Source of the DNA: Bacteroidota bacterium | GTDB taxonomy: Bacteria > Bacteroidota > Bacteroidia > Flavobacteriales_D > Sanyastnellaceae | NCBI GenBank assembly: GCA_027622975.1 | Contig: JAQBVN010000005.1 | Span: 1 to 64,000 of the forward strand | Direction of reading: 5' to 3' | DNA: 64,000 bases | In this document: in pieces, positions 1-16,712 of the stretch | How positions within the stretch are numbered: position 1 is the stretch's first letter | How the letters are laid out: each line of letters begins with the position of its first letter | Made by a program: the position numbers and the translations under genes | The notes under the pieces: generated by a model | What the model saw: only the letters and a program-made list of their open reading frames with translations | What the model was told of the DNA's origin: nothing | The model's database searches: none

Positions 1-223
1 CGGAGATGAACCCCATGATGGGGTCGGTGATGGCGTCAAAAATGCGAGGCAAAAACTGGATGATGCCCCACAGAAGGGCAGCAAATCCAAGGTCTTGCAC
101 CAACACGATGATGAATACGCCCAAGGCAGCGGGGAACATTTGGTTGGCGAGCATGCCGAAGCCAAAGGCGACTTTTTGGCCCATCGAAACGTTTTGGGTT
201 GAGGGCGAGGTTGAATTGTCCAT
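1..223 (-). CDS. GPH/MelB-type MFS sugar symporter, N-terminal part only
   Basis: The frame opens at an ATG at 223 and runs off the left edge, so only 74 codons are visible. The translation has a short polar N-terminus (MDNSTSPSTQNVSMGQ), a hydrophobic first segment at about residues 18-43, and then FDAITDPIMG at 62-71. That last motif matches the conserved D-x-x-T-D-P cation-site region of glycoside-pentoside-hexuronide symporters such as MelB. It lies 14 bases downstream of the GH30 stop and is probably the last or next-to-last gene of the glucan operon. Inferred role: cation-coupled import of glucose or beta-gluco-oligosaccharides across the inner membrane, feeding the cytoplasmic GH30 and phosphorylase. 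The substrate cannot be read from this fragment. Confidence 0.75.
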   Translation of the reverse strand, partial: MDNSTSPSTQNVSMGQKVAFGFGMLANQMFPAALGVFIIVLVQDLGFAALLWGIIQFLPRIFDAITDPIMGFIS

Positions 224-237
224 CGTTCGGTTGATTT

Positions 238-1695
238 TCAGAGTTCGTCAGGTGTGAGTACAATCGTTTGAAGGGCTTGGGCATCGAGGGCGACGCGAAC
301 GTCTTGGCCCAGGCCTCTCACGCACATGGTACGACGTGAGTTCCCGGGATTGAAACATACGAGAACATGGGTTCCATCTGTGGCTTCGCAGGCCACAGCC
401 ATCAATTCAGGGTCCTTGCATTCGCTTGCCAACACAGTGGATCCCGGCCTGAGGAACTTACTGAAGTGGCACATCACGTCATAAAGTGGGGTGAAATACA
501 CATCGTCCTGTTCGGGATCCACAAGGACAGGGGCAACGCACCAGTTCTTGAACCAATTTGGCCCCCCTTGACGATCCAACACCATGTTCCAATCAATCCA
601 CCCATTCACCCAATGATTGAGACATCCGATGATGTCACGAGCATAACGGTGAACCGGCGCAACCTTCGGGTGGAGGTACTTTTTCTCCTCTTCTCGCCAT
701 GTGTAGCCCCAGTCTGTGGCTTCCGCCCGCCAGTACCAATCGTCGTCATGCCACACGGGGATCTGGGCGTCGATGCACGCTTCCGTCTGAATGAGCAACT
801 TGTCAGGGGCCGCTCGGTGCGCCCGCTCCAAAGCCTCCGGGAAATAGTCATACGTGCTGTCGTACCAATGCACGGCCGTTCCCGCAAAATGCTTGGCGCT
901 TTCCGAATCTCGGTACATCACTGAAACCCATTCGTCCAAGCCGTCGCGGTTTTGGTCGTAACCAAGGACTTTCATGTGGCCCAAACCGTGTTTTTCCAAA
1001 TTGGGTCCCAGGTGATCCCTGACGAATGCAGTCATATGCTCCGGAGAGAAAAGCATGCTCTCCCAGTTGTTCCCATTGCCGTGAGGCTCATTTTCCACGG
1101 TGAATCCCCACATGGAAATCCCTTCTTGTTGGTAGGCCTCAGCGTACTTGACAAAAAATTGAGCCCACGTGGGTTGCATGTCTTCGCGCAGATGACCTCC
1201 CACCCATGCATGGTTGTCTTTCATCCAAGGAGGCGCAGTCCATGGCGATGCAATGATGTTAAAACCATCTTTCGACATCTCTTGAGCCTCCCGCATCATA
1301 GGGATGAGGAATTCTCGGTCTGGGTCAATGCTGAAATGTTCCAAGGCCAAATCCCCTTCCACGGGAGCGTAGCTGTAGTGAAAGCGGGAAAAATCACATG
1401 AGTTCATGTGGGTTCGGGCAAGAGAATAGCACGCACCCTCTTCATGAAAGTAGGATTTGATAATCCTGTGGCGCTGGGCAGGACTCACTTGGTGGACCAA
1501 AAAGGCAGAAGCGTCGGTGAAGGACCCGCCGAAACCGACAATGCGTTGTCTGCGTTGATTCACGTGCACTTGGACACTCACCTCCGAGGGGTCGGGTACA
1601 TTCCAAAGGGCAATCACATCCTGCGGGACGGCATGAAATCTCCCCCCGTTCCGAGACGTCTCAAACACCGCGATGTGGACCTTGGCTTCCTTCAT
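238..1695 (-). CDS. GH30 family beta-glucosidase/glucanase, cytoplasmic
   Basis: A 485-residue clan GH-A enzyme of the glucosylceramidase-like GH30 family. Visible landmarks are FGGSFTDASAF (about 55-65), SPWTAPPWMKDN (150-161), the acid/base glutamate in TVENEPHG (E203) and the nucleophile in LIQTEACIDA (E305). There is no signal peptide or lipobox, so the protein should stay in the cytoplasm. GH30 enzymes in bacterial laminarin loci remove beta-1,6-linked glucose branches; that specificity is inferred here from the neighbours (GH17, GH149-like phosphorylase, symporter). It starts 22 bases after the preceding lipoprotein gene, consistent with one transcript. Confidence 0.88.
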   Translation of the reverse strand: MKEAKVHIAVFETSRNGGRFHAVPQDVIALWNVPDPSEVSVQVHVNQRRQRIVGFGGSFTDASAFLVHQVSPAQRHRIIKSYFHEEGACYSLARTHMNSCDFSRFHYSYAPVEGDLALEHFSIDPDREFLIPMMREAQEMSKDGFNIIASPWTAPPWMKDNHAWVGGHLREDMQPTWAQFFVKYAEAYQQEGISMWGFTVENEPHGNGNNWESMLFSPEHMTAFVRDHLGPNLEKHGLGHMKVLGYDQNRDGLDEWVSVMYRDSESAKHFAGTAVHWYDSTYDYFPEALERAHRAAPDKLLIQTEACIDAQIPVWHDDDWYWRAEATDWGYTWREEEKKYLHPKVAPVHRYARDIIGCLNHWVNGWIDWNMVLDRQGGPNWFKNWCVAPVLVDPEQDDVYFTPLYDVMCHFSKFLRPGSTVLASECKDPELMAVACEATDGTHVLVCFNPGNSRRTMCVRGLGQDVRVALDAQALQTIVLTPDEL

Positions 1696-1717
1696 GGCGG
1701 GACTTCCATTCGCAGTT

Positions 1718-2776
1718 TCAGTGGGTTAGTTTGGGATTCTTGTGCGCATGGGGTTCAAACAGCGATTTGACCACCCCATAGGCCTCTTTGGGATTCCGAT
1801 GAACATCCACAAGCCCCCAGTATTCTTCGTTGGCGGTTCCGTCGTAGGGAACGCCACTGCTCCCGGGAGCCCAACCTCCTGCATCTTGCTGGTCTGGTTG
1901 CCCGGCTTTCCACCAGCCGTCGGTGAAGGAGAAAACCACGGCGCCGGCGCACCGAACCGAGTCTGAAAACAGGGGAGCCAACAAGTTCCGGGTGGCATCG
2001 GCTTGTGCGCGTTGGTTGGGGCCTTGTTCGTACCCCAACGACGCAGTGGACATGTAGCTGTCGGCGCCGATTTCTGAGAAGTACATGGGCTTGTCGCTGA
2101 GCTTGGCAAAGTCCAGCGCGGCCGTGTAAGACACATCCCAGCGGTACACATTCAAACCCCAAACGTCGATGTCCGTCATTTCCGTGATCAACGCCTCGTC
2201 CGGCAATTCGCCGTGAGCTGTCGCGACCGGGTGGTTGGGGTCCGCGGCCTGAATGGCGGCTGAGGCCTCGCGCAATGTTTTGTACCAGAGGTCGAGCGAG
2301 CCCCCAAACCACTCAGGGTGGTAGTTGAATTCGTTGCCCAATTCCCAGCAAAGGATGGCGGGATGCGACTTGAACCTCTCCACGTAGTCGAGGTAGGTGC
2401 CCGATTGCAAATCGTAGACTCCACCTTGGTTGTATCCTACGCCCACAATCACTGAGATCCCCGCCTCGTAGATCTCATCGAGTACAGCCTCCGAAGCGAT
2501 GGGTTCGTACACGCGTATGGTGTTGACGCCCATGTCTTGCATCAGCTCGAGGTCTTGCGTCAGCGATTCGAAGCTTCGCTTGTCCTGACCAACGGGCACG
2601 GGATGGTAACACACGCCTTGCACGAAGTGGACACCCTCGGAGGTGTGAATCTGTCCTTTCTCAGTCCACACCTGGCGCTGAGGAAGTACCGTGCAAGAAG
2701 CCAAACACATGCCCAAACCAAGAAGAATAAGGGGCATCGAAAAGAGCCGTTGGGGAGTCATGCTCGGAAAGGTCAT
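1718..2776 (-). CDS. clan GH-A glycoside hydrolase or transglycosylase lipoprotein, family unassigned
   Basis: The ATG at 2776 overlaps the stop of the GH17 gene by 4 bases and gives a lipoprotein signal ending in CLASC (C28), so I prefer it to the longer upstream frame. The 352-residue product has a TIM-barrel pattern: MGVNTIRVYEP (about 82-92), an acid/base glutamate in WELGNEF (E149) and a second catalytic glutamate in YFSEIGADS (E235). N-terminal text such as GVHFVQGVCYHPV recalls GH2 C-terminal barrels and GH72 glucanosyltransferases more than GH5 or GH17, but I cannot assign a family. It is probably periplasmic or outer-membrane anchored and acts on glucan fragments with GH17. It could be an exo-acting enzyme or a transglycosylase. 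Confidence 0.72.
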   Translation of the reverse strand: MTFPSMTPQRLFSMPLILLGLGMCLASCTVLPQRQVWTEKGQIHTSEGVHFVQGVCYHPVPVGQDKRSFESLTQDLELMQDMGVNTIRVYEPIASEAVLDEIYEAGISVIVGVGYNQGGVYDLQSGTYLDYVERFKSHPAILCWELGNEFNYHPEWFGGSLDLWYKTLREASAAIQAADPNHPVATAHGELPDEALITEMTDIDVWGLNVYRWDVSYTAALDFAKLSDKPMYFSEIGADSYMSTASLGYEQGPNQRAQADATRNLLAPLFSDSVRCAGAVVFSFTDGWWKAGQPDQQDAGGWAPGSSGVPYDGTANEEYWGLVDVHRNPKEAYGVVKSLFEPHAHKNPKLTH

Positions 2777-4041
2777 GGAGCTGGATTCAACACATGCCGG
2801 TCGAGCAATTCTCGCTGGCCGGAGTAGGTGGGCTTGATGGCACGGCCGTCGCGGGTCAGGCCGTCGAACACACCCTGTTCTACAAGCGACCAAATCGCGT
2901 ATTTGGCTTCCCCATTCCGTGTGAACAACCCAAAGTGGTTTTCCGAGTCGGTCGGATTGGCCGAGCTCTTCCACGGCTCGTCAAATGCTTCGAAGTAGAA
3001 ACAGCTGATGCCTGAGGATTGGGTCCATTGACGCATGCCTTGGTAAAACAAGGCCTGCTTGTATTCATCCGCAGCTCGGGAGCCTTCGGGACCGTAAAAC
3101 CCATCGGACACACTGGCCCATCCAGTTTCGCCGATGTGCACGGGCTTATCAGGATCGATGCCTTGGACATACTTCACTACGGAATGGTACTGGTTTTGGC
3201 TGTATTCAAGCGCCCTTTCCATGGCAGCATCCACATCTCTGGGATCAAACTCCTCGCCCTGCCAAAACACCGGGTTGTAATGCGTGTCGTGGAAGGGATA
3301 TGTGTGCATCGACACGTAATCCACCGCGCGGATGAGGCTGTCCAAATCGTCGTTGTGGTATTCGGAACCACCCCCACCCCAAGACGCGAAGTTGTCGGAG
3401 CTGGTGATCCACATGTCGCTCGGCAGCGTGCCATCTCGCTTGAGACCTTGCAGGTGCTCGACCCATTGCAAGATGATTTTGGGTGCCACGAAATAGGACG
3501 CGGCCCAATGCACCATGGCTTCGTTGCCGACGGCTATGACCTTGACGATGTCGGGGTGCTGTTGGGCCAAGGCCACAGCACGCTGAATTTCTGCCTGGTT
3601 GGCCTCAACGTCTTCCTCGGCGTGGTTGGGGGCGTCGGTCCAAGCTCCGGCACAATCAATCCAAGCACCGAGCATGACGTACATCTCAAACATGGGATCC
3701 TCGTCCTTCAATTCACGGATCGCCTTGACCACATTGGAGGCATGAGGCAACTGGACATTGTAAGTGCGTAAAAACCGAATCCCCATGGCATGCAAAATCC
3801 GCAAGTCCTCTTTCAATTGAGCAATCGTGGGTTGTTCAGAACGGCTTGTGCCGCGGTAACCTCCAAAAGAAATGGCGGGATAATCGGGATTTCCAATCAG
3901 TTCAGATGCCGGTTGATGGTGCATGGTTGGCTGCGCTTGTTGAGGTCCACACGACGTGAGGACCGCGGGAAGAAGAAGGAAAGCCGCCCAACCCCGATGG
4001 GATCTGGCGATTTCCGTGAATCTAGCCTTGAATGTTGACAT
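2773..4041 (-). CDS. GH17 beta-1,3-glucanase lipoprotein
   Basis: The longest frame begins at a TTG inside the stop of the phosphorylase gene. The ATG at 4041, preceded by GGAG about nine bases upstream, gives MSTFKARFTE and then a lipobox ending VLTSC (C31), so it is used here (422 residues). The GH17 signatures are MGIRFLRTYNVQLP, the acid/base in IAVGNEAMV (E174) and the nucleophile in HIGETGWAS (E304). GH17 members hydrolyse beta-1,3-glucans, in bacteria typically laminarin. Lipidation suggests action at the cell envelope, supplying oligosaccharides for import. Its stop overlaps the next start by 4 bases (ATGA). Confidence 0.88.
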   Translation of the reverse strand: MSTFKARFTEIARSHRGWAAFLLLPAVLTSCGPQQAQPTMHHQPASELIGNPDYPAISFGGYRGTSRSEQPTIAQLKEDLRILHAMGIRFLRTYNVQLPHASNVVKAIRELKDEDPMFEMYVMLGAWIDCAGAWTDAPNHAEEDVEANQAEIQRAVALAQQHPDIVKVIAVGNEAMVHWAASYFVAPKIILQWVEHLQGLKRDGTLPSDMWITSSDNFASWGGGGSEYHNDDLDSLIRAVDYVSMHTYPFHDTHYNPVFWQGEEFDPRDVDAAMERALEYSQNQYHSVVKYVQGIDPDKPVHIGETGWASVSDGFYGPEGSRAADEYKQALFYQGMRQWTQSSGISCFYFEAFDEPWKSSANPTDSENHFGLFTRNGEAKYAIWSLVEQGVFDGLTRDGRAIKPTYSGQRELLDRHVLNPAP

Positions 4042-4060
4042 TTGCCACATCTCCGAGGGG

Positions 4061-7000
4061 TCAGGCAATGACCGTGAGTTGTGTCACTTCATGGGTCCGT
4101 CTGAAAATCTTGGCGCTGACTTCGCGGTCCAAAACCAGCCCCTCCACGTGACGAGTCTCTCCGTTTGTCATGTGCACCACAATCTGTGATTGGTCACCAC
4201 GTTGATGCACCACCGGGACCTGGCATACGGTATACGCCAAACTCCCTGCGGTGAGCTCGAGGGTTTGGCGCTGCTGTTGGACATCGACATAGTCAAACGT
4301 CGCCGGGGCGGTCAAGAACTCTTCGGAGTGCATCAAGGCCCGGTCAAAATGGAGCTGCCCGGCCGACACCCGAACACCTAGTTCTCCAAAGCGGCAAAGC
4401 AAGTCCTCCTTGACTTGTCCTGTCATGCCCGGTTGCTGCGCCCCTTTTCCTCCAGGCGTGTGGGAGTAAGGGTCTGTTGGAAACGCCCCGTACAAGTCAG
4501 GAGATTTGTGTGCACCAATGCCAGCGTTGATTTCGAAATAGTGGTCAAACAAACGCCCGACGATTTCCGGAGCCTCACCTTGCTCCACGGCGGCCTTGGT
4601 GACTTCAAACATGGCCAGTCGGAGTTTGGAGACCATGTGCCAATAAATCGACCCCAAGCCTTCGTACCCGAAGAACGTGCCCGAGCGGCCTGTGAATGCT
4701 TTGTGGTTGAAGATGCCTTCGTACACGTCTTCCACTTGTTTTTGTTCTGCCTTCACCAAGGACTGGTAGCGCTGGGGCAAAGCCCGTAAGGCGGCGCGTA
4801 ACGCATGGACGTTGTGAAGGTTGCCGTTGAAGTGATATCCGCCCAAACAATCTTGGGTGACAATGTCAACATGTTGGTCTGCCACGAGCTGAGCCAAAAG
4901 CTTGGACCCCGACACGGCTTCCGGGTCGATGTTGTTCTTCTGCAAGAAACGGGGCAGGGACTTGTTGGGGTAGAGCACGTAGCTGTACTGGTCATCCCTG
5001 AAAAGGGCACTCGCTTTCAAGGCGTCCATCACCGCAAGGCTGTCTGCAGCATTCAGGAGGCCCGAACTCAGAACGGCCACTTGGCCTTCGAGCATTTCAG
5101 GCAATTCAGTGATGGCAATCCCTCCGTCTGGCTCAACCGTCATCAAGTTGTACGCGTGGTAGAGTCCGTCAGCGCGCTTGTTGGCCCGGATGGTGTGTTC
5201 GAGATGTTCCAAGGCGACCTCCACGAAGGATTTCAAATCAGCCAAGGACAGTGTGGATTGAAGGCCCGAAAAATCCTCGTTGTAAATGGTTTGTCGGAAA
5301 TCGCTCGATGCGGAGCCCAAACCATCGAGAATCATCCGCCGCGTGGCATTGGACACAGGTCCGGATGCCGATGCCAGATGTTCGCGAAGCGTGGCGTCCA
5401 TCCGTTTGAAGCACGCGAGCAATTCATCCGAAATCGACACCTCTCGGTGGCTTGTTTGGGCCAACACTCCTTGAAAAAACACCAAGAATCTGCGCAGGTA
5501 GCAAAGGGTCACCATGGACACACCGTTGCCCACCAAGGCATTGTTTGCATCATTCCATTCTGGGCGCTGCGTGTTCATCCAAATCCCGCCTTCCGGAATG
5601 AAGTTGGCGATTTTGGCGAGCATCGTCGCCATGATTTTCTCAATGAAATTGACCTTGTAGATGAAAACGTGTTTTTCTCGCAGAAGCGCCCCGTCACCAC
5701 CAATTTCATCTTTCTTGAATCCAATTTTCTCCTCGCGTTCGTGATCAAAGTCAATCGTGTTTTTGGGATCCTCCAAAAGGGCATCGTATGACTTGATTCG
5801 ATAAGGGACATTGGCGTAGACAAACGAATTGTTCTGGATGTACTCCTCCAGCTTGTCGGGATCATAGGCCTGCAAGAATTCCAGGAATTTCAGCAAGTAG
5901 ATGATCTGGTGGTCTCCCCAGTATCCAATGTAGGACCAAGGGTTGTCCGGTTCAATGGTCTCCCACTCAAATCCGTCCTTGAACACGCGGTAGGGGTTGT
6001 AACCGTCAAACGTGGTCGCATTGAGGAACTTGAAAATCATGCCCTCAATGAACTGCGGATAGGCGTGAACCAGGGCTTCCCAATTCTGAAAGATGTCGCG
6101 CCAGTTTCCTTGATAGTCTAGGATCTTCGACCCATCGTCTTCGTTGCGAAGGTTGATGGAGAACTTGTTCCACGGTCGGCTGGGGTCGCCGTGTCGGCGG
6201 CTGAACTTCAGCGGCAAATACTCCGCGCACAGCCGTTTGAAATTCAGATCGTCGTCGTGTTTGGCTTGTTCTTGGAGGAAGAACAAATCAAATTTCTCGG
6301 GCCAAGCACTCATTTTCTCGGCCTTCTTGAAAAACACCTTGTGGTTGGCGCGGTCGATGTAGGCCATGAAATCGGCTCGCTCCATCGCATAGTTCTCGTC
6401 GAAAATTCCGCCACGCATGATGTTGAACATGGTGTTGGCGAAGTGGCGGATGTTTCGACGACGGTCGGCAGTGAGTTGCAACCCGTCACTTGCGGCCACC
6501 AAGGCAATGAGGCCATTGGATCCTTGTGCGACATCGTTCAGGACGGATTGCTTCAATGCATCCGGTGATTGAAGATCCCTTTTCAAACGAATGACCCCGC
6601 GAATGGACTGACCCAAATTGGCGACGACCACCCATTCCTTGTTGTGATGGGCGGCCAGCTCAAACGAGGACTGCACGAAATAGGCTCCACGCTCGGCTTT
6701 GATGTCGGTCTCTGTTTCCAGGGATTGACCGCATTTGAAGGCTTCGAGTTGTTGGGAGGAAAGGAGGACTTTTGGGGACTCAAACCCCACGGACCATACG
6801 ACGTTGGCCTTCAACGACTCGCTCGGCTCTGCCTTGTCGGAAATGATGGCACTCAAGGCAAAAATCCCCAAGTTGCCGTCTTCGAGTTCGCACTTTTTGT
6901 AGGCGTCGACCAGGTTGCTGCTGCCGCGCTGAAGGCCTTCAGGCACCCCATAAGGGAGCACGTTTTGAATGCCGTCGAGCACACTGACTTGGATTGGTTG

Positions 7001-7522
7001 GTCAGCGAATGAGGTGAGGCGCGCTTGACGCACAAACCCATACAACTCGCTCGCGGCCCACTGGTAGCGGAACGTCAAGTTGAGGTCGTGGTTGATCTCT
7101 TCAAACACGACTTTGTTGCCGTAGGCGTTTTTGTACAGGTTGCGCTCGATCGAATAGACCCCTCGATGTTGGTTTGAGAAAGGTTGCCACAGCATGCGGC
7201 GGTCTCCGGCTTCCACCAGCAAGATGGTCATGCAGCCGGTGTTATCGGCCGATTCGGTGATTTTGTCGTCCGTGTAGTATGGGAACAAGGCGAAATCGCT
7301 GTTGACCCTTCCTGCGGAGAGTCCGCCATTGCTGGCCAAAAACATCCAGTGGTCCGAATGGCTGACAATGCTCATGAAAAACGGACGCATCCGATCCACG
7401 GCACTGATTTTGTAGTACGTCTCGCCTTCGAGGGTGATTTCCTCCCCGGTGATGGGGGCTAGGGATGGTTGGTAGGGCTGCTGCCCGAGATATATGGAAG
7501 GATGGTTCTCCTTGTCGCTCAT
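4061..7522 (-). CDS. GH149-like beta-1,3-glucan phosphorylase
   Basis: An 1153-residue cytoplasmic protein with no signal peptide, of the size and layout of GH149 beta-1,3-oligoglucan phosphorylases and longer than GH94 cellobiose phosphorylases. It begins with a beta-rich domain (MRPFFMSIVSHSDHW, about 45-59) and carries an (alpha/alpha)6-type catalytic domain. The segment RPEWNDANNALVGNG (about 653-667) corresponds to the DWND region of GH94, with D658 the likely general acid. The C-terminus is beta-rich. These enzymes release glucose-1-phosphate from beta-1,3-gluco-oligosaccharides using phosphate. As first gene of the cluster it sets the theme of phosphorolytic rather than hydrolytic finishing. 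GH161 is the main alternative family. Confidence 0.72.
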   Translation of the reverse strand: MSDKENHPSIYLGQQPYQPSLAPITGEEITLEGETYYKISAVDRMRPFFMSIVSHSDHWMFLASNGGLSAGRVNSDFALFPYYTDDKITESADNTGCMTILLVEAGDRRMLWQPFSNQHRGVYSIERNLYKNAYGNKVVFEEINHDLNLTFRYQWAASELYGFVRQARLTSFADQPIQVSVLDGIQNVLPYGVPEGLQRGSSNLVDAYKKCELEDGNLGIFALSAIISDKAEPSESLKANVVWSVGFESPKVLLSSQQLEAFKCGQSLETETDIKAERGAYFVQSSFELAAHHNKEWVVVANLGQSIRGVIRLKRDLQSPDALKQSVLNDVAQGSNGLIALVAASDGLQLTADRRRNIRHFANTMFNIMRGGIFDENYAMERADFMAYIDRANHKVFFKKAEKMSAWPEKFDLFFLQEQAKHDDDLNFKRLCAEYLPLKFSRRHGDPSRPWNKFSINLRNEDDGSKILDYQGNWRDIFQNWEALVHAYPQFIEGMIFKFLNATTFDGYNPYRVFKDGFEWETIEPDNPWSYIGYWGDHQIIYLLKFLEFLQAYDPDKLEEYIQNNSFVYANVPYRIKSYDALLEDPKNTIDFDHEREEKIGFKKDEIGGDGALLREKHVFIYKVNFIEKIMATMLAKIANFIPEGGIWMNTQRPEWNDANNALVGNGVSMVTLCYLRRFLVFFQGVLAQTSHREVSISDELLACFKRMDATLREHLASASGPVSNATRRMILDGLGSASSDFRQTIYNEDFSGLQSTLSLADLKSFVEVALEHLEHTIRANKRADGLYHAYNLMTVEPDGGIAITELPEMLEGQVAVLSSGLLNAADSLAVMDALKASALFRDDQYSYVLYPNKSLPRFLQKNNIDPEAVSGSKLLAQLVADQHVDIVTQDCLGGYHFNGNLHNVHALRAALRALPQRYQSLVKAEQKQVEDVYEGIFNHKAFTGRSGTFFGYEGLGSIYWHMVSKLRLAMFEVTKAAVEQGEAPEIVGRLFDHYFEINAGIGAHKSPDLYGAFPTDPYSHTPGGKGAQQPGMTGQVKEDLLCRFGELGVRVSAGQLHFDRALMHSEEFLTAPATFDYVDVQQQRQTLELTAGSLAYTVCQVPVVHQRGDQSQIVVHMTNGETRHVEGLVLDREVSAKIFRRTHEVTQLTVIA

Positions 7523-7816
7523 GTCAGAGTGGTAGTCGGTTGTCTTAAGACCGTGAACCCAATCTGTGTCTTACCTACAGAGAACGCGGTCTACTTGCCG
7601 TGCATTAACAGCGGAGCGAATTTAAACCCTGCGGTTGGATTTTGCCTCATCGAACATGACGAGGGCTGTGCGTTGAGGGCCCGGGTTGTGTATGCAGTAC
7701 CCGATTCCTCAGCTCGACGCCTTTTTAGTTCGTTAACAAGGATGGTCTGCAACATTCCATCACGTGTGACGTTCTTGCGGCAATTCAATTTGATGTGTCA
7801 CACAACACCTGGCATC
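7523..7816. other. divergent intergenic region between glucan operon and barrel gene
   Basis: About 290 bases separate the divergently read phosphorylase and barrel genes. I see no credible ORF or RNA gene. The promoter of the glucan operon should lie here, but I found no exact TAnnTTTG box on the minus strand. A near match, TCAATTTG, sits about 26 bases before the barrel gene on the plus strand. Confidence 0.5.
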
Positions 7817-8428
7817 ATGCACAAGCACCTTTTGGCCTTTTTCTTGCCCGTCGTATTCCTAAACGCTGACGTTTGCGCTCAGGAGTCGACCCTCTCCAAA
7901 TGGACGTTTCAACTGTCTCAAGGCATGGGAACGGCAGTCCTTCAAAACGACGTTGTGCCGTCGCGGTTGGAGATGACGAGTGTGGAGGCTTTGGGCGAGT
8001 ATCGGTTCAACGACCAAACGACACTCGCGACAGGCGTGTCGTTGATGGGATTGAACGGAAACAGCTTCAATGAATTGGGGAACTACAACCAAACCCGTGG
8101 AGTGCTTAGCGTTCCTGTGATCCTCCAGAACAGTCGCCCGCTGTCCGACAAGGCTCAACTGGTGACCAGTGCCGGCGTCTTGGCCAACCGTATTCTAGAG
8201 GATTCACGTCAGTACGTGGGTGGCTCTGAGTTGCTGCAAGTGCCCAATTTGTCGATGGGCTTGCGGGCGGGACTCGGGGTGACGTACGACCTCACTTCAC
8301 GAACGGCCCTTGGGCTGGGATACCAGCTTCAGCATGCATTTTCAGACCTCATCCAGAGTCCAGAAATCCTCGATTCCCGCATGAGCGCTCGCTCGTTGAA
8401 CGTGACGTTGAAGTTCAGGTTGAACTGA
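7817..8428 (+). CDS. small secreted outer-membrane beta-barrel-like protein
   Basis: The ORF extends far upstream, but the ATG at 7817 opens a clean signal peptide (MHKHLLAFFLPVVFLNADVCAQ) and the sequence before it is not protein-like. The mature part of about 180 residues is made of alternating polar and hydrophobic stretches with many T/S/G residues (for example ALGLGYQLQHAF), and ends in strand-like LNVTLKFRLN. This pattern resembles small opacity-porin or PorT-type barrels of Bacteroidota. No catalytic motif is visible. It is divergent from the glucan operon and convergent with the next gene, so context says little about its job. Confidence 0.6.
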   Translation: MHKHLLAFFLPVVFLNADVCAQESTLSKWTFQLSQGMGTAVLQNDVVPSRLEMTSVEALGEYRFNDQTTLATGVSLMGLNGNSFNELGNYNQTRGVLSVPVILQNSRPLSDKAQLVTSAGVLANRILEDSRQYVGGSELLQVPNLSMGLRAGLGVTYDLTSRTALGLGYQLQHAFSDLIQSPEILDSRMSARSLNVTLKFRLN

Positions 8429-8444
8429 TGGGTCGACGACGGTT

Positions 8445-9653
8445 TCAGGCCAAACGCCCGGCCAGGAACCCCGTGGTCCACGCCGCCTGAAAGTTGAAGC
8501 CTCCCGTCACGCCGTCCACGTCGAGGACCTCTCCCGCGAAATAAATGCCGGGCACGACGCGGCTTTGCATCGTGGCGAATTCGACCTCGCCAAGGCTTAC
8601 ACCCCCGCACGTCACGAACTCCTCTTTGAACGTCGTCTTGCCGCGCACGTCGTAGACGTCGTTGAGCAGCGTGTTGACGAGCTTGTTCTTCGCCTTTTTG
8701 CCTAGGTCGACCCAAACCGCGTCGGCCTGCACGTCTGCCCTTTCCAGCAGGTAGGCCCAAAACTTCCTCGGCAGTTCAAACGGACACGCGTTCGCCACTT
8801 TCTTCTTCCGCATGTCCTGCATGGTGTCGTCGATCGTGGCGTTTACATCTGCTTCGTTCGCGATGCCAATCCAGTTCACCTGAACTGAAAATTCATAGTT
8901 GCGCTCGGCGAGTTCGCGGGCGCCCCACGCGCTGAGTTTCAGCACGGCCGGACCGCTCATGCCCCAGTGGGTGATCAGGACGGGACCGTCTTGGACGAGT
9001 TTGGTGCCTTGGATTCGAACGCGTGCCTCGGGCACGACGACGCCCATCAGGTCGGTGATGTCGGCACCGGGCATGTTGAACGTGAACAGGGACGGGACGG
9101 GTGGGGCGACGGAGTGGCCGAGCGCTTCGAGCCACGCGAGGCCCTCCCGCTTGGGGCTGCCGCCCGTCGCCACGACCACGCGATCGAAGCGCTCGCCGTT
9201 CAGGGTGAAGCCGTCCGGCGCGAGGGGGGTGAGTTCCTGGACCGGGGATTGGAGGCGGACCTCAATCCCGTGCCGGTCCGCCTCGCGAACGAGGCAGTCG
9301 ATGACGGTTTGGGACGAGTCGGTGACGGGAAACATGCGCCCGTCGCCTTCGGTTTTGAGGGCCACGCCCCGCGACTCAAACCACGCGACCGTGTCGGATG
9401 CCTGGAACGTTCCGAAGGCTTTTTTCAACTCCTTGCCGCCACGGGGGTAGTGCCTGGACAGTACTGAAGGGGAGAAGCAGTGGTGGGTGACGTTGCAGCG
9501 GCCGCCGCCGGAGATTTTGACCTTGGAAAGGAGTTTGGCCGTCTTCTCAAAGAGCACGACATGGGCGGAAGGGTGGTGCTTCGCCGCAGACAACGCCGCG
9601 AAAAACCCCGCCGCGCCGCCGCCAATCACCGCCACCTTCAGAGCGCCTTCCAT
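8445..9653 (-). CDS. YhiN/HI0933-type FAD-dependent oxidoreductase
   Basis: A 402-residue flavoprotein. The N-terminal dinucleotide-binding loop is VAVIGGGAAGFFAAL (about 8-22), followed by ISGGGRCNVTHH, the hallmark of the HI0933/YhiN family. VVVATGGSPKREGLAWLEALG near the middle and a C-terminal GGVSLGEV...GIYFAGEVLDVDGVTGGFNFQ complete the pattern. Members are annotated as NAD(P)/FAD-dependent oxidoreductases; the physiological substrate is not established. It is cytoplasmic. A TAATTTGC box on the minus strand ends four bases before the ATG, suggesting a leaderless message. Confidence 0.85.
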   Translation of the reverse strand: MEGALKVAVIGGGAAGFFAALSAAKHHPSAHVVLFEKTAKLLSKVKISGGGRCNVTHHCFSPSVLSRHYPRGGKELKKAFGTFQASDTVAWFESRGVALKTEGDGRMFPVTDSSQTVIDCLVREADRHGIEVRLQSPVQELTPLAPDGFTLNGERFDRVVVATGGSPKREGLAWLEALGHSVAPPVPSLFTFNMPGADITDLMGVVVPEARVRIQGTKLVQDGPVLITHWGMSGPAVLKLSAWGARELAERNYEFSVQVNWIGIANEADVNATIDDTMQDMRKKKVANACPFELPRKFWAYLLERADVQADAVWVDLGKKAKNKLVNTLLNDVYDVRGKTTFKEEFVTCGGVSLGEVEFATMQSRVVPGIYFAGEVLDVDGVTGGFNFQAAWTTGFLAGRLA

Positions 9654-9657
9654 GCCC

Positions 9658-9665
9658 GCAAATTA
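9658..9665 (-). promoter_or_regulatory. putative -7 box (TAATTTGC) of the flavoprotein gene
   Basis: Read on the minus strand it resembles the Bacteroidota TAnnTTTG element and ends four bases from the ATG at 9653. No TTG is present 19 bases upstream, so the call rests on the box and its recurring position. Confidence 0.45.
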
Positions 9666-9687
9666 GCCCACAAGCGCACGGTGCGCG

Positions 9688-9695
9688 TATCTTTC
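9688..9695 (+). promoter_or_regulatory. putative -7 box (TATCTTTC) of the hydroxylase gene
   Basis: The box lies five bases before the ATG at 9701. The same TATCTT core recurs before yicC, tRNA-Gln, the DoxX gene and others. It is back to back with the minus-strand box at 9658-9665. Confidence 0.45.
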
Positions 9696-9700
9696 CGTAC

Positions 9701-10528
9701 ATGGAAGCGTTCCTCGACTTTTTTGAAGCCATGCCTTCGTGGCAGAAGCTCGTGTGGATTGTGGTGTGCATGTCGTTCAACCTTGCGATCGAGGGAATTC
9801 GGCCGCTGTTCCAAGGTGGGTTCCGATCCTGGAAGCACACGCGCACCAACCTGACCTTCCTCGCCACGACGATGGCGATCAACGCGGCGTTTGGGGCCGC
9901 GACGGTGGGCGTGTTTGCGTGGGCGGCGACCAACGAGGTCGGCCTGCTACACATGATGGAGGCGCCGACCTGGGTGGAGCTTTTGGTCGCCATCGTGGTC
10001 TTCGACCTCCTTGCGCAGTACGGCGTGCACTGGTGCCTGCACAACGTGAAACCCCTGTGGCGTTTGCACATGGTCCACCACAGCGACACGCACGTGGACG
10101 TGACGACGGGAACCCGTCACCACCCCCTGGACTTTGTGGTGCGGGAGTGCTTCGCCTTGGCGGCCGTGCTCGTGACGGGCGCGCCCGTGGCCTTCTACCT
10201 GTTCTATCGAATCCTGACCGTGTTCTTCACGTACCTCACCCACGCGAACATCGAGCTTCCTGAAAAGGTGGATCGGGCGATTAGCTGGGTCTTCGTGTCG
10301 CCCAACATGCACAAATTCCACCACCACTTTGAGGTGCCGTGGACGGACCGCAATTACGGCAACATGCTGAGCGTTTGGGATCGGCTCTTCGGGACCTTCA
10401 CCTACGGCGACATGGCGGACATCAAGTACGGGCTTGACGTGGCGGATGAAAGCCGCGGGGACGACTTGGGTTACCAGATGGGCTTGCCGTTCCGCCGCGA
10501 TGTGAAGTCGTCTGGCCAAAAGCTTTGA
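9701..10528 (+). CDS. sterol desaturase / fatty acid hydroxylase superfamily membrane protein
   Basis: A 275-residue integral membrane di-iron enzyme. Hydrophobic segments occupy about 15-33, 45-75, 85-105 and 150-180. The histidine boxes of the superfamily are present in order: HWCLH (about 111-115), HMVHH (124-128), HANIE (near 182) and HKFHHHFE (about 204-211). Family members hydroxylate or desaturate sterols, carotenoids or fatty acids, with the His clusters facing the cytoplasm. The substrate is unknown here. The start is supported by a -7-like box five bases upstream. Confidence 0.85.
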   Translation: MEAFLDFFEAMPSWQKLVWIVVCMSFNLAIEGIRPLFQGGFRSWKHTRTNLTFLATTMAINAAFGAATVGVFAWAATNEVGLLHMMEAPTWVELLVAIVVFDLLAQYGVHWCLHNVKPLWRLHMVHHSDTHVDVTTGTRHHPLDFVVRECFALAAVLVTGAPVAFYLFYRILTVFFTYLTHANIELPEKVDRAISWVFVSPNMHKFHHHFEVPWTDRNYGNMLSVWDRLFGTFTYGDMADIKYGLDVADESRGDDLGYQMGLPFRRDVKSSGQKL

Positions 10529-10604
10529 AAACCCACATTGCATGCAACTCGGCAATCAGAACTTGGGTCTGAATACCAGAGTGACTTACCCCAAAACCTG
10601 ACCC

Positions 10605-10841
10605 ATGAACTTTTTGAAAACTGCTTTGATGGCCCTCCTCGTTGGCGGAGGTCTCGCTTCATGCTCGGAGTCTTACACGTGCACGTGCCCGGTGAAATGC
10701 GAAATGGAGATGTGCGCAGACTCCTGCGTGTGTGGCATGGCGGATGACGTGGTCGAACACGCCATTACAGCGGCCAACCTGGACGATGCCGAGGCAGAAT
10801 GTGCCACGCACGGCACCGACTGCGTCTTGACTGTCGATTGA
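10605..10841 (+). CDS. small cysteine-rich lipoprotein
   Basis: 78 residues with a lipoprotein signal (MNFLKTALMALLVGGGLASC, lipid on C20). The mature part of about 58 residues has cysteines in a tight run (TCTCPVKCEMEMCADSCVCG) and two more near the acidic C-terminus. The pattern could bind metal or be disulfide-rich, but I recognise no family. It overlaps the longest frame of the downstream thioesterase but not that gene's likely true start. Confidence 0.6.
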   Translation: MNFLKTALMALLVGGGLASCSESYTCTCPVKCEMEMCADSCVCGMADDVVEHAITAANLDDAEAECATHGTDCVLTVD

Positions 10842-10879
10842 TTGTTGCGCAGGTGCAAGGCGTCAGCGACCTTTGCGCC

Positions 10880-11275
10880 ATGCAATTGCTTGGAACCAAA
10901 GTCTGCAAGAAGTACGACCTCGGGGTGCACAACAACTTGTTTGGCGGCACCATGCTCAGCTGGATCGACGAATCGGCGGTCGCCTTTGTGAACGAAGTCT
11001 GCCATTGCCCGACCATGGTGACGCTCAAGATTGAGGAGGTCCTGTTCAAGTCGCCAGTCAAGGAGAACAACCTCATCAAGATCTACGGCCAAATCGACCG
11101 CATCGGAAGCAAGAGCATCACAGTCTCTGTGGAGGCCCGCAAGTTCAACGTCTACAGCCACGAAGAGGCGGTGGTGTGCAGCACTCGCTTGGTCTTCGTG
11201 CGCCTCGACGACGACGGGAAGAGCATCCCCATCGCCAAGCATGTTCGGGAGAAGTATCCCGAGAAGTGCATGTGA
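10880..11275 (+). CDS. hotdog-fold acyl-CoA thioesterase
   Basis: The ATG at 10880 (MQLLGTKVCKKYDLG) is used; the upstream extension overlaps the lipoprotein gene and is not protein-like. The 131-residue product carries the acyl-CoA thioesterase pattern VHNNLFGGTMLSWIDESA, in which the Asp after W-I is the usual catalytic residue, and ends in a basic tail. YciA-type enzymes hydrolyse medium- and long-chain acyl-CoAs in the cytoplasm. It starts about 38 bases after the small lipoprotein gene. Confidence 0.82.
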   Translation: MQLLGTKVCKKYDLGVHNNLFGGTMLSWIDESAVAFVNEVCHCPTMVTLKIEEVLFKSPVKENNLIKIYGQIDRIGSKSITVSVEARKFNVYSHEEAVVCSTRLVFVRLDDDGKSIPIAKHVREKYPEKCM

Positions 11276-11288
11276 GGGTCAACTCCTC

Positions 11289-13625
11289 TTAACAGTCTTC
11301 ACCGAAGACAGCGAGGATTTCTAGGATGTCCCATACGGTGACAGCGAGGTCTCCATCCACATCGGCCGTGCAACTTTGTTCGCACCCGAATTCTCCAAGC
11401 ACTTCCAACACGTCAGCCACGGAGATGAATCCGTCTTGCGTCACATCGGCAGGACAATCGGTGATCTCATCTCCTAAGATTTGGCCGTCGCAGTTGTTGT
11501 CGATTCCCTGTCCAGAGCCTGGGGCCCCCGGATAGGCTGCTGCGTTGCCGTCATCGCAGTCGCCACCGACCAGAACCCATCCATCGGGAAGTGGATCACA
11601 GGCGTCCGCAATCATTTGGTCTCCACCCACACCATCTCCATCACCATCGACAAACACGACGTCGTAAGGATAGGTGCAGCTGCCATCGTTTGTCACAGCG
11701 ATCGGGTCGTAATTGCATGCATCCATGTCTGTGCATCCCAAAGCGCCGAGCTCTAAACAAAATGCCTCCGTGACACTGGATGAGAACGCTCCGCCGGTGA
11801 TGTTCAAACCCGAGGCAGAGGTGAGGGTGTACGATCCTTGGCCGAATTCGCAGCACAATCCATCTCCAAAACTGTCAAACACTTGAAGGTTGTAACACCC
11901 TACGTCAAGACAGGCTTCAGCAACAAATTCAGAACTGACTCCCGCGTAAGGCCCTCCGGACATGACCACGTTGCCTGCTTCATCGGTGACTGTCCATGTG
12001 GTTTCTCCTGGATAGTTGTCCGTCAAGATGGTGACGGTGACAGCCACACAAGGGTACAGGCATGAATCATCGAAAGTCACGGCGTTCGGGTCAAAATTCA
12101 AGGCGCTGGGATCGGTGCATCCGGGCGGCTCGTTGATGCAGTCGAACACGGAGAAGCTCACTTCCGCACTGTTTCCTTGGTTGTCGGTGAGGGTCACGTC
12201 GTACGTTGCGAACGGCCCTTGCGGAAATCCGGACAACACGACCACAGCGCCTGTGGGTGTGGGCTGGATGTCTGCTGAGACACCGGCAGGGAGTCCCAGA
12301 ACCGACAGGTCTCCGACAGCCGACTGGCTGGTCAGGGTCACCTCCACACTTTCGTTGAAACACACCAATTCCGCCAGAGTCGATGCTGTGAAGACCGAGG
12401 GTTTCAACAGAAACAATCCCTGTTCAATGTGGCTCACTGCCACCACCCCTGAAGCGAAGAAAGGATAGTTGGACCATGATCCATTGAATGCGGCGGAATT
12501 GCTGGACGGATACACATCGAAGTAGGCAATTTCAGATGCATTTCCGTTGGCCACATCCGAGACGTCCATCATCCGCAATCCCGCGCGGTAGTTGCTTTGG
12601 TAGGCAATACCGTCTTTGATGTAGAGGTTGTGATCGATGGCCGGGAGCGACGAGGTGTAGGTGAAGGCCAAAAATGGGTTGTCCAAGTCCTCGACGTTCC
12701 AGAAATAAGTGGTGGTGCCATTGACGATTCCGTAGTACTCGTCCAATTCATCTCCCACCACGAAGAACCGATGGTCCTCGGTCAACCACCCTTGGTGGGT
12801 GTAACCGGGGTTGTAATTTCCTTCAGCAAGGGTGTTGGAGAGAACGATGGCATCGGTCGGGTCGGTCACGTCGATGATGGACACCTTCACCTCGTTGCAT
12901 GCAAAGGCAATTTCCTTTCCCTGGTGATCGGGGTCAGGTCCGATGTAGTTCACGACGTGCGCATCATGCGCGTAACCTTCTTCGGACACCAAACCGACAA
13001 TCGTGGGATTCAGAGGGTCGTTGATGTCAACAATGTGCAGGCCGCCATTCGCTGTGCCAGTTCCCACGCCATAGGCATGTCCTGTGGCTTCATTGATGAC
13101 AATGTTGTGTGCATTTCCAAATCCGGAATACACGGCATCTGCCGCGAAGGTTTGGGGTGGATTGCTCACATCGCGCAGCTTGGTGAGGTCAAACACCTGC
13201 ATGCCATGCCCCCCCGCCTCGGACACGATGAAGGCGTGATGTTGATCGAGCTCAGGTCGGCTGAACACTTTCGCATCTCGCCACAAAGAATTGACGGTGT
13301 TTGTCGGCAAGTTGCCGAGGTACAAGGGGTTGATGGGGTCCGAAATGTCGATGAAGGCCGTGCCTGAGGTTCGGCACAAAATGACGTATTCCGTGCCATC
13401 AAGAGGGTCGGTCCACCCCCAAATATCATTCATGTTGCCTCCGCCGACGGCGCCAACACCCATGGTCGAGAGCAGGTCGATGTGGTTGCATGGATACAAT
13501 CCCGCGGCCAAGCCTCCTTCGCAAGGAGATTGCCCTGCAAGGGTCGTGCATATTCCAAGCGTGGCCAGCAACCACGTGAGGGCTTGCCAGGACCGAGTGT
13601 CAGAGGAAAGGAAACTCGAGTTCAT
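11289..13625 (-). CDS. secreted choice-of-anchor-B (LVIVD-type) protein with dockerin-like tail
   Basis: The ATG at 13625 opens a signal peptide that probably ends near CTTLAGQ; it lies 7 bases after the stop of the upstream nuclease gene, so the two are likely co-transcribed. Of 778 residues, the first 400 or so form the choice-of-anchor-B domain with repeated phrases such as AFIDISDPINPLYLG, LHIVDINDPLNPTIVG and SIIDVTDPTDAIVLS, a propeller-like LVIVD pattern. Then come two GCTD...DDSC/DGSC modules, a Ca-binding-type DGDGDGVGGD segment, and a C-terminal pair of dockerin-like motifs (SVADVLEVLGEFGC and TVWDILEILAVFGEDC). The protein is extracellular; its function is unknown. Confidence 0.78.
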   Translation of the reverse strand: MNSSFLSSDTRSWQALTWLLATLGICTTLAGQSPCEGGLAAGLYPCNHIDLLSTMGVGAVGGGNMNDIWGWTDPLDGTEYVILCRTSGTAFIDISDPINPLYLGNLPTNTVNSLWRDAKVFSRPELDQHHAFIVSEAGGHGMQVFDLTKLRDVSNPPQTFAADAVYSGFGNAHNIVINEATGHAYGVGTGTANGGLHIVDINDPLNPTIVGLVSEEGYAHDAHVVNYIGPDPDHQGKEIAFACNEVKVSIIDVTDPTDAIVLSNTLAEGNYNPGYTHQGWLTEDHRFFVVGDELDEYYGIVNGTTTYFWNVEDLDNPFLAFTYTSSLPAIDHNLYIKDGIAYQSNYRAGLRMMDVSDVANGNASEIAYFDVYPSSNSAAFNGSWSNYPFFASGVVAVSHIEQGLFLLKPSVFTASTLAELVCFNESVEVTLTSQSAVGDLSVLGLPAGVSADIQPTPTGAVVVLSGFPQGPFATYDVTLTDNQGNSAEVSFSVFDCINEPPGCTDPSALNFDPNAVTFDDSCLYPCVAVTVTILTDNYPGETTWTVTDEAGNVVMSGGPYAGVSSEFVAEACLDVGCYNLQVFDSFGDGLCCEFGQGSYTLTSASGLNITGGAFSSSVTEAFCLELGALGCTDMDACNYDPIAVTNDGSCTYPYDVVFVDGDGDGVGGDQMIADACDPLPDGWVLVGGDCDDGNAAAYPGAPGSGQGIDNNCDGQILGDEITDCPADVTQDGFISVADVLEVLGEFGCEQSCTADVDGDLAVTVWDILEILAVFGEDC

Positions 13626-13632
13626 GGGGGAA

Positions 13633-15186
13633 TCAGTTGCAGGTTTGGCCAAAAGCGGAGAGTAGCAGCAGCACGTCGGTGACCGTGGTCGATCCGTCGC
13701 CGTCAAAGTCGATGGGACATCCCCCCGTGCATCCAAAGGCTCCAAGCACCTCCAGGATGTCTGCCACCCCCACAATGAGATCGCCATTCAAATCTTCGGG
13801 ACATCCCGTGCCGGGGGCGTTCACATGAATGGTTTGCGTCGCCGTGGTCACATTTCCACAAGCATCGGTGGCAGTGAAGACACGGAGGATGTCGTACGGG
13901 TCGGGACAAGGCCCACCAACCAATTGTGTGGCTACCGTCATCGTCACGGCGGAGCAGTCATCGACAGCTGTGGCCATCAAAGGGTTGAAGGTGTCGTCGT
14001 CGCACGTGATGGTTTCGTCCGCAGGGACAAACTCAAAGAAAGGGGGTGTCACGTCCACCACAACAAGGAGCTGGACGAAGGTGCTTGTGTTTCCGCAACC
14101 ATCGGTGGCCGTGTAGGTTCTTTCGATGCCAGAGGATCCTGTGCACCCTGCCGTTCCCGAAGGGGTGTCGGTCCACGTCAAGGAAGCAATGCCACATGGA
14201 TCAGTGGGGTCGGCCAAAGCGCCCGGCGTGATGCCGCACGACACATTGACGGAGGTGGCTGTTCCGCCGAAATCAGGTCCCTCATTGTCCAAAGGAGTCC
14301 CGTCATACATCCACGCGATGTAGACCAAGTCGGGATGCTCGATGTAAGGGTTGAAGTTGCCTTGGACCTCGTTGATTTTGTCGTTTCGACTCAGTTCCAC
14401 AGCATCAACGGGGTCAGCAACATGCCAATCGTACAGGGTTTGCAACGATCCACAATCCGTGATGATCGTACCAGCATTGGGGTACATGGTGTAGAAGTAA
14501 AACACGGCCCTGGCCACATCGCCTTTTTTGGATTCGCGCGGCTCCCAAACGCCCCCACTTCCTTCGGACCAGTTGTCGCTGTTGGCTGGCTCGTTGCCCG
14601 TGGATGTGTAGGTGTTTCCAACCACCCCGTACCACTGGGCGCTGTTGTCATTCACCTCACCATAAGGGTCGTTGCTACGGGCGCTGTTGGCACTTCCATG
14701 GGCAGGTCGCAGGATGTAGATGTCGCTCTTCATGGGCTCTGAACTCCCAAAAAAACTCTGCGGAACGATGTGCTCTGCGTTGATGGGGTTTGGGTAGGTG
14801 ACAAACCCTCCAGCCTGTTCAAACCCAGTGTAGATGCACTGGATGTCTCCGTCGGCACGGATGTCGGTGTATCCGTACATCTGTCTGCGCCCTTCGTCGT
14901 AGCCCAAACTGCTGTGATAACCCTCAAACCAATTGGCCTTCAACCAAGACCTCATGTCCTCGAGGTACAACCCACTTGGAGGGTCGGGTTGTGCCATGCA
15001 TACATTTCCCAGGAGCATGACAAGCACAAACACCCATCTCCCACCTGATCCCCACCAAGACAGTCGGCCCGAGGCGGGCAGAAATGATGCCCGACCGAGC
15101 GAGGGCGCCGATCCGGGCGCAGGTACCAAGGGCGACGCCTTCGATGTGCGGGTCAAGATCAGGGGAGAGGAACTCAAATGTGGCAT
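13633..15186 (-). CDS. secreted endonuclease I family nuclease with HYR-like repeats and dockerin-like tail
   Basis: I take the ATG at 15186 (517 residues), just downstream of a -7-like box; a TTG at 15192 is also possible. The first 45 or so residues are an unusual Ser/Pro-rich extension before the hydrophobic signal core WVFVLVMLLGNVCMAQ. The nuclease domain (about 70-290) shows NAEHIVPQSFF with the catalytic His (H139), VARAVFYFYTMYP and GNFNPYIEHPDLV, as in pfam Endonuclease_1. Two HYR-like repeats follow (TATDGCGNTSTF, TATDACGNVTTA), then tandem dockerin-like motifs VADILEVLGAFGC and VTDVLLLLSAFGQ. It probably degrades extracellular DNA. It is co-directional with the anchor-B gene 7 bases downstream. 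Confidence 0.82.
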   Translation of the reverse strand: MPHLSSSPLILTRTSKASPLVPAPGSAPSLGRASFLPASGRLSWWGSGGRWVFVLVMLLGNVCMAQPDPPSGLYLEDMRSWLKANWFEGYHSSLGYDEGRRQMYGYTDIRADGDIQCIYTGFEQAGGFVTYPNPINAEHIVPQSFFGSSEPMKSDIYILRPAHGSANSARSNDPYGEVNDNSAQWYGVVGNTYTSTGNEPANSDNWSEGSGGVWEPRESKKGDVARAVFYFYTMYPNAGTIITDCGSLQTLYDWHVADPVDAVELSRNDKINEVQGNFNPYIEHPDLVYIAWMYDGTPLDNEGPDFGGTATSVNVSCGITPGALADPTDPCGIASLTWTDTPSGTAGCTGSSGIERTYTATDGCGNTSTFVQLLVVVDVTPPFFEFVPADETITCDDDTFNPLMATAVDDCSAVTMTVATQLVGGPCPDPYDILRVFTATDACGNVTTATQTIHVNAPGTGCPEDLNGDLIVGVADILEVLGAFGCTGGCPIDFDGDGSTTVTDVLLLLSAFGQTCN

Positions 15187-15195
15187 GGGCAACCT

Positions 15196-15203
15196 TGAAG
15201 ATA
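15196..15203 (-). promoter_or_regulatory. putative -7 box (TATCTTCA) of the nuclease gene
   Basis: The box is on the minus strand nine bases before the ATG at 15186. It is the same sequence as the box before the DoxX gene. No TTG sits 19 bases upstream. Confidence 0.4.
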
Positions 15204-15326
15204 CAAAAATTCACTCCTGAGCGGGCCATGCGCCCACGGGCATGTGCTTCCTGCATGGCCGCTATGTGTACGATTCAACCACCAAGCTCGTTGGAATGTT
15301 GCACGGGTTTGGGCAATGAGTTTGAT

Positions 15327-15749
15327 TCATTCTGAAGCCAAACGCCGGTTGTCGAGCCACCCATCCACGCTCCACGCGCCTCCCCCCAACAGGCCCACAG
15401 CCGAGAAGGCGACCCCATAGAGCAACGCCATTTCTTTGTCTCCCAGAGGGTCTCCGCCATGCACGACAAAGGCGGCAACCCCCATCGTGAACGCAGCGGG
15501 AAGGGCCGCCCAGCGAGTTTTCCATCCCACCACCATCAGTGCCGGCGCCACGAGTTCGGCCAAGACCGTCAACACCAAGGAGACCTCGGGTCCGAGGCCC
15601 AGGAAATTGAAAAATTTCACGCCTTCCTCCGACCCCCATTGGTCGATGAGTCGATTCATTTTGGGCCATCCGTGGGTCATCATCAGCCCGGACGGCACGA
15701 CGCGCAAGAGCAGCAGCCCCACGTCCGGCAAATTCTCTTTCCAATTCAT
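15327..15749 (-). CDS. DoxX family membrane protein
   Basis: 140 residues with four hydrophobic segments at about 8-25, 55-75, 80-98 and 105-125. The N-terminal motif LLLLRVVPSGLMMTHGWPK matches the DoxX family (RxxxGxxxxxHGxxK). DoxX proteins are small inner-membrane proteins, some of them quinone-linked oxidoreductase subunits; the role here is not known. The start is backed by a TATCTTCA box seven bases upstream. Confidence 0.82.
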   Translation of the reverse strand: MNWKENLPDVGLLLLRVVPSGLMMTHGWPKMNRLIDQWGSEEGVKFFNFLGLGPEVSLVLTVLAELVAPALMVVGWKTRWAALPAAFTMGVAAFVVHGGDPLGDKEMALLYGVAFSAVGLLGGGAWSVDGWLDNRRLASE

Positions 15750-15756
15750 TACGTAT

Positions 15757-15764
15757 TGAAGATA
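15757..15764 (-). promoter_or_regulatory. putative -7 box (TATCTTCA) of the DoxX gene
   Basis: The box lies on the minus strand seven bases before the ATG at 15749, a spacing that would give a leaderless or near-leaderless transcript. Confidence 0.42.
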
Positions 15765-15865
15765 ACCCGTTCACGCGGGTATGTTCGCAACGATTTGGTA
15801 AAATGCTGATCGTCAGGTTGATTTGGATTGATCTTGTCAGCCATCAACCAACCAATCCCTACCTC

Positions 15866-16372
15866 ATGAAACAGGTGTTTGTTGCGGCAGTGGCCGCAGT
15901 GATGCTCGCCGGATGTGTGCGTCACGGATGCACTGATTTTGATGCCCTGAACTACAGCACTTCAGCCAACGTGGACGACGGTTCTTGCATTTTTCCGGAA
16001 GATGTGGATGGCATCTTGGCCTCCAACGAAGTGAGCGTTTCGTGGGTTTTCGACAATCCGAGTTACTTGGCAGCCATTGACTGGTCGGCAATCACTTCTT
16101 CCGTGGTGGACAACGGTGCCGTACTTGTTTTCGCCAAATACCAAAACGCATGGACAGCCTTGCCCATGACGGTGCCTTGGCCGGGAGGCTACACCAGTTC
16201 CATCAATTACTTCTATGCGACGGGTGGTGTCGTTGTGGAATGGCTGGACAGCGATTTTGTCCAACCGGACTATCCTTTCTTGACGGAATTCAAAATTGTG
16301 CTCCTCGAAGACCGTGCACTTGAATCGGAGGTCTCGGAGCAGCTCGAGAAGATACACTCTTCTCGGAATTAA
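15866..16372 (+). CDS. lipoprotein with one GCTD...DDGSC module
   Basis: The ATG at 15866 gives a lipoprotein signal ending MLAGC (C17), better than the start 63 bases upstream. Right after the lipidated Cys comes HGCTDFDALNYSTSANVDDG, one copy of the module also found in the anchor-B protein and the giant adhesin. The remaining 120 or so residues (SVSWVFDNPSYLAAIDWSAI onward) are hydrophobic/aromatic beta-like sequence of no family I can name. The protein should sit on the outer or inner membrane. Confidence 0.7.
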   Translation: MKQVFVAAVAAVMLAGCVRHGCTDFDALNYSTSANVDDGSCIFPEDVDGILASNEVSVSWVFDNPSYLAAIDWSAITSSVVDNGAVLVFAKYQNAWTALPMTVPWPGGYTSSINYFYATGGVVVEWLDSDFVQPDYPFLTEFKIVLLEDRALESEVSEQLEKIHSSRN

Positions 16373-16373
16373 G

Positions 16374-16433
16374 CAACAAAAAACCCCGCACCTAAGTGCG
16401 GGGCTTCTCTGGGGTTGTGGGCAAACCTGGACT
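16374..16433. repeat. upstream copy of duplicated tRNA-Val tail plus terminator
   Basis: Bases 16374-16424 are identical to 16555-16605, and the match continues with two mismatches to 16433/16614. Read on the minus strand the repeat holds the last part of tRNA-Val followed by the G/C-rich hairpin and a run of six T. Only the copy at 16555 adjoins a complete tRNA. The hairpin (CCCCGCAC, loop, GTGCGGGG at 16384-16403) may also end transcription of the lipoprotein gene on the plus strand. Confidence 0.85.
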
Positions 16434-16555
16434 ACCTCGCTTCGCTCGGTGGACACGTGGGGGAGGCCTTCACAACCCCTTCGAAGCCTGCGGACTGTCG
16501 TCCGCAAGTTTTCTTTTGGGATCCATGCGATCAAGCAAGCTTGTCTTTGGACCCC

Positions 16556-16584
16556 AACAAAAAACCCCGCACCTAAGTGCGGGG
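16556..16584 (-). terminator. intrinsic terminator of tRNA-Val
   Basis: An eight-base-pair stem, CCCCGCAC/GTGCGGGG with a four-base loop (16565-16584), is followed on the minus strand by six T (16564-16559). It starts about 14 bases after the tRNA 3' end. Confidence 0.85.
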
Positions 16585-16598
16585 CTTCTCTGGGGTTG

Positions 16599-16672
<74 letters not shown>

Positions 16673-16682
16673 AGAGCGGACG

Positions 16683-16712
16683 CAAATGTACAGCGGAGTT
16701 CATGAACTCCAA
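16683..16712 (-). promoter_or_regulatory. promoter of tRNA-Val
   Basis: On the minus strand TTG (16712-16710), 19 bases, then TACATTTG (16690-16683), a perfect match to the Bacteroidota sigma consensus. It ends 10 bases before the mature tRNA. Confidence 0.75.

Follow-up and report, generated by a model that had tools for sequence, protein, structure and literature searches.

The window, the whole 64-kb stretch of DNA analysed here, opens contig C17 of a 2.27-Mb, 39-contig, 92% complete genome. Its laminarin pathway very probably runs through two loci, with the five-gene operon at the start of the window as the inner half and a SusC/SusD locus on a different contig (C6) as the outer half. The closest named relatives of the source genome are uncultured Flavobacteriales MAGs. 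The operon is real, well conserved and of a known kind; the apparent relocation of its GH30 is unusual.

All five packed minus-strand genes that a preliminary description had reported within positions 1–7,522 were found in place (Table 1). The overlaps it had claimed are in fact gaps of about 19, 11, 22 and 14 nt in the order from GH149 to the GPH symporter, and an overlap arises only if alternative TTG or GTG starts are used. Contig C17 begins at position 1 of the window, so the operon runs into the contig end. In relatives, it goes on with the remainder of the GPH gene and sometimes with a second GH17, and the order GH149-GH17-(GHx)-(GH30)-GPH-(GH17B) is widespread among 80 named GH149 loci, many of them with SusCD upstream. 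GH17B was not found in the present assembly, the sole match being the operon's own GH17. The contigs of many related genomes (L045, L046, L047, L048, L049 and L052) also stop inside the operon, in GPH, GHx, GH30 or GH17, which perhaps reflects strain variation or recombination around GHx-GH30. Farther into the window (11289–15192), two large secreted-type proteins carry repeated “GCTD..A.N.DP” segments and dockerin-like ends.

Table 1. Features of the operon and of the GHx-GH30 junction in related loci
Feature	Position	Strand	Remarks
GH149 beta-1,3-glucan phosphorylase	4061..7522	-	1153 aa, without signal peptide
GH17 lipoprotein, predicted endo-beta-1,3-glucanase	2773..4041	-	6fcg match, PF00332, lipobox LTSC
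GHx lipoprotein, orphan clan GH-A barrel, 347 aa	1718..2761	-	alignment, AlphaFold2 model, structural matches
GH30, predicted beta-1,6-glucosidase (debranching), without signal peptide	238..1695	-	PF02055, glucocerebrosidase match
GPH-family sugar:cation symporter, cut off by the contig end after 74 codons	1..223	-	PF13347, TIGR00792
Junction start codon in fused GHx-GH30	L042:10600-10612, L043:9599-9611, L044:12995-13007, others		

The GH149 protein matches the NCBIfam equivalog NF058639 over residues 23–1151 with 1730.9 bits (cut-off 1150) and the solved enzyme Pro_7066 (6hq6) with 1467 bits. Both motifs named for the Pro_7066 structure (PMC6771811) are kept, the sugar-phosphate motif RD as R475-D476 and the catalytic motif WND as W656-N657-D658. 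With a score above the equivalog cut-off and both motifs in place, the protein belongs to GH149 and is a predicted phosphorylase, as originally described, and its assignment to a non-phosphorylase family, named beforehand as the outcome that would speak against this reading, did not come about.

The remaining family assignments of the preliminary description held as well. GH17 aligns over nearly its full length with the GH17 structure 6fcg (549 bits), which we take to be the Formosa enzyme FbGH17A, scores above the PF00332 cut-off, and contains a candidate acid/base glutamate in VGNEA and a candidate nucleophile in IGETGW. The lipoboxes of both claimed lipoproteins are present (LTSC in GH17, LASC in GHx). 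The symporter fragment (74 residues) matches both PF13347 and TIGR00792, and the full-length gene is present in relatives. Contig C30 was rejected as the place of the missing symporter half, because the sole other MFS_2 match, found there, is a complete and different MFS protein beside a CBM48 protein.

The second lipoprotein, GHx, has a pair of glutamates that is invariant in 15 aligned orthologues (E144 in WELGNE and E230 in SE.G). Its AlphaFold2 model (pLDDT 79.7) is a bare clan GH-A barrel that matches the barrels of GH2, GH157 and GH158 with similar scores (Z 24–26.5), the matches including GH2 glucuronidases, a GH157 solved with laminari-oligosaccharides and a GH158 soaked with gluco-oligosaccharides. 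Against PF02836, the GH2 barrel, it reaches 24.3 bits (cut-off 21), and its 347 residues hold no sandwich domain. GHx was left unassigned instead of being placed in GH158 or GH2, because the sequence matches are weak and several clan GH-A families are tied in structure. The gene context suggests that GHx may act on beta-glucan, and the “GH0” listed in published laminarin loci is possibly the same protein (PMC10108472).

GH30 matches PF02055 with 258 bits and human glucocerebrosidase with 250 bits, and both catalytic glutamates are kept (VENEP and QTEAC), in line with its initial assignment. Its N-terminus, MKEAKVHIAVFETSR, does not form a signal peptide, and the frame stays open for only 10 codons upstream. 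The cytoplasmic location proposed in the preliminary description is thus probable for the window itself, but it is a derived state: orthologues elsewhere carry a signal peptide or are fused to the GHx lipoprotein. Outside the window's family, 49 of 50 GH30 copies begin with a hydrophobic signal (judged by eye), mostly followed by a lipobox cysteine, and the remaining copy is truncated. Within the family, none of the copies with a readable start has a signal of its own. The window's genome and the genomes G043 and G062, of three different genera, each encode GH30 as a gene of its own, and since at most 10 open codons precede its start there, a hidden signal is not possible. By sequence, the enzyme is apparently cytoplasmic in all three.

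In at least 10 other family genomes from three genera, GHx and GH30 form a single open frame, and at least one member (L050) lacks GH30 at this place. The fusion joint lies exactly at the start codon of GH30, which is ATG in all but one case (TTG there) and might leave room for internal initiation. A one-base assembly error was rejected as the cause of the split in the window, because a distinct 22-nt spacer separates the two genes there and each of two further split genomes has its own spacer. The GH30 tree unites the fused copies in a single clade (100/99) that leaves out the split copies, including that of the window; GHx and GH17 of the window fall together with fused members from the same genus (support 82–87). 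The GH149, GHx and GH17 trees disagree about the window and the GH30 tree gives a single fusion, so that recombination is likely; given the conflict between the GH30 tree and the other three, a simple order of fusion and fission was rejected. Loss of the signal in the family ancestor would fit all trees.

Taken together, these patterns suggest that the debranching enzyme changed compartment. As a tentative and still rather doubtful scenario, we propose that GH30 lost its signal in the family and that laminarin debranching thereby turned from a periplasmic into a cytoplasmic step, in which case the symporter must carry branched oligosaccharides, that a sub-group later fused GH30 to an exported lipoprotein, and that the start codon at the junction may still give rise to a second, cytoplasmic form. 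A limited literature search found no published report of the lost GH30 signal or of the GHx-GH30 fusion. Export by close relatives outside the family, the missing gene in L050 and the grouping of GHx and GH17 with fused members speak for another reading, in which GH30 is a stranded remnant of an exported enzyme or of a GHx-GH30 fusion, cut off from export and in the course of being lost. We consider such decay unlikely: the gene is intact with both catalytic glutamates, its dN of 0.14–0.28 (a comparison that leaves out G043) is far below a saturated or near-saturated dS and thus indicates purifying selection, unfused copies without a signal recur in three genomes of different genera, and the clade of fused copies does not include the window.

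A second question raised by the operon concerns its importer. The preliminary description had noted the lack of SusC/SusD in the visible part, and indeed neither was found in positions 1–20000 of the window, whose operon ends at the contig end, nor in the operon or flanks of any family member examined. In other bacteria, linked SusCD usually lie upstream of GH149; there the window contains unrelated genes on both strands, including an HI0933-like flavoprotein and a fatty acid hydroxylase. The operon thus lacks the SusC/SusD pair that a canonical Bacteroidota PUL has in the same locus, but the absence is not the sign of a SusCD-free system, as a laminarin-type pair is encoded on contig C6. The C6 locus comprises GH3, a CBM48 protein, SusC, SusD, a PKD protein and GH16. 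Among solved structures, laminarinases and beta-1,3-glucanases come nearest to the GH16, and 9sje and 6gcz to the SusD; 6gcz is the laminarin-binding SusD of Gramella (PMC11351036). The genome has one further SusC/SusD pair, on C3, and on C7 a SusC next to a SusD-like protein; where other Bacteroidota have SusC and SusD upstream of GH149, these scored best with the C6 pair in every case. A close orthologue of the C6 SusD (at least 55% identity, counted by hand) is present in 22 of the 25 GH149-bearing family genomes compared with 30 of 89 others (Fisher p 1.6e-6, kinship ignored). All five relatives examined show the C6 gene order; GH16 went undetected in one of them and the PKD protein in another. 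An importer therefore exists that is unlinked to the GH149 operon, and two separate loci appear to serve laminarin use, as they do in Formosa, for which three laminarin loci have been reported (PMC6246565). The pair on C3 (46000–65999, L054) lies with two alpha-amylase-family proteins and a glucose/sorbosone dehydrogenase and likely belongs to an alpha-glucan PUL. On C7 (26000–45999, L055), SusC, its SusD-like_2 partner and a histidine kinase adjoin ATP synthase alpha and gamma genes.

The same flanks free of SusC/SusD, together with a published GH149 “CAZyme cluster” type that lacks susCD (PMC5827456), could point to a scavenger operon that takes up free laminari-oligosaccharides produced by other microbes, without need of SusCD. 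Such a life on foreign products is quite improbable here, given that the genome has a laminarin-type SusCD-GH16-GH3 locus of its own and that most GH149-bearing family genomes share its SusD.

In the two-locus pathway, the surface GH16 of C6 would cut laminarin, SusC/SusD and the PKD protein would capture and import the fragments, and GH3 would trim them. The lipoproteins GH17 and GHx would shorten the fragments further, and the GPH symporter would carry oligosaccharides, some of them still beta-1,6-branched, across the inner membrane. In the cytoplasm, GH30 would take off the beta-1,6 side glucoses and GH149 would phosphorolyse the beta-1,3 chain, presumably saving ATP, to glucose-1-phosphate, which phosphoglucomutase would convert to glucose-6-phosphate; the two loci may be co-regulated. 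The substrate (laminarin-type beta-1,3-glucan), GPH uptake and intracellular phosphorolysis originally suggested are supported, and phosphoglucomutase-family genes are present in the genome. Three points count against the proposal: the symporter gene is truncated by the contig end here, the GH30 of Formosa acts on polymeric laminarin and has been placed in the periplasm (PMC6246565), and the GH3 of C6 could make glucose outside, in competition with phosphorolysis. That GH149 instead runs in the synthetic direction and stores beta-1,3-glucan is hardly credible, for although its reaction is reversible (PMC5827456), the operon encodes secreted glucanases and an uptake symporter, and laminarin induces homologous laminarin loci (PMC6246565).

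Comparison with known systems shows both shared and distinct traits. The laminarin PULs of Formosa sp. Hel1_33_131 (PMC6246565) and the variant A and B PULs of North Sea Flavobacteriia (PMC6298971) likewise combine a set of GH17, GH30 and GPH/MFS with GH149 (variant B type) and a GH16-GH3-SusCD locus (variant A type, to which C6 is close). Here, in contrast, the variant B enzymes occur without SusCD or GH16, GH30 has no signal peptide, and there is an extra orphan GH-A lipoprotein. The GH149-GH0-GH30_1-GH17 laminarin PUL of Cd. Prosiliicoccus has the same four enzyme types by listed content if GH0 is GHx; the portion of the source at hand describes it as variant 1 type and yielded no description of signal peptides or a fusion (PMC10108472). 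The “CAZyme clusters” in Fig. 7C of the founding paper, which describes GH149 clusters both with and without susCD, are similar in joining GH149 with GH17 and/or GH16, GH30_1 or GH3 in the absence of susCD (PMC5827456). The laminarin PUL of Muricauda lutaonensis also has GH149 upstream, followed by GH17A, GH30_1, MFS and GH17B, but differs in containing GH16 and PKD genes (PMC13188888).

Overall, the functional reading of the preliminary description was mostly right, and its remark on SusC/SusD is resolved by the C6 locus. GH149 clusters without SusCD were already known; new are the location of the importer in the genome, the loss of the signal from GH30 and its fusion to GHx. Laminarin is one of the main carbon currencies of the sea. 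A PUL caller that requires SusC/SusD nearby would miss the GH149 enzyme cluster, and in fragmentary MAGs a laminarin capacity divided between two loci is easily counted too low. Thanks to the history of GH30, nature provides the same debranching enzyme in two compartments for comparison, and this history predicts the cargo of the symporter.
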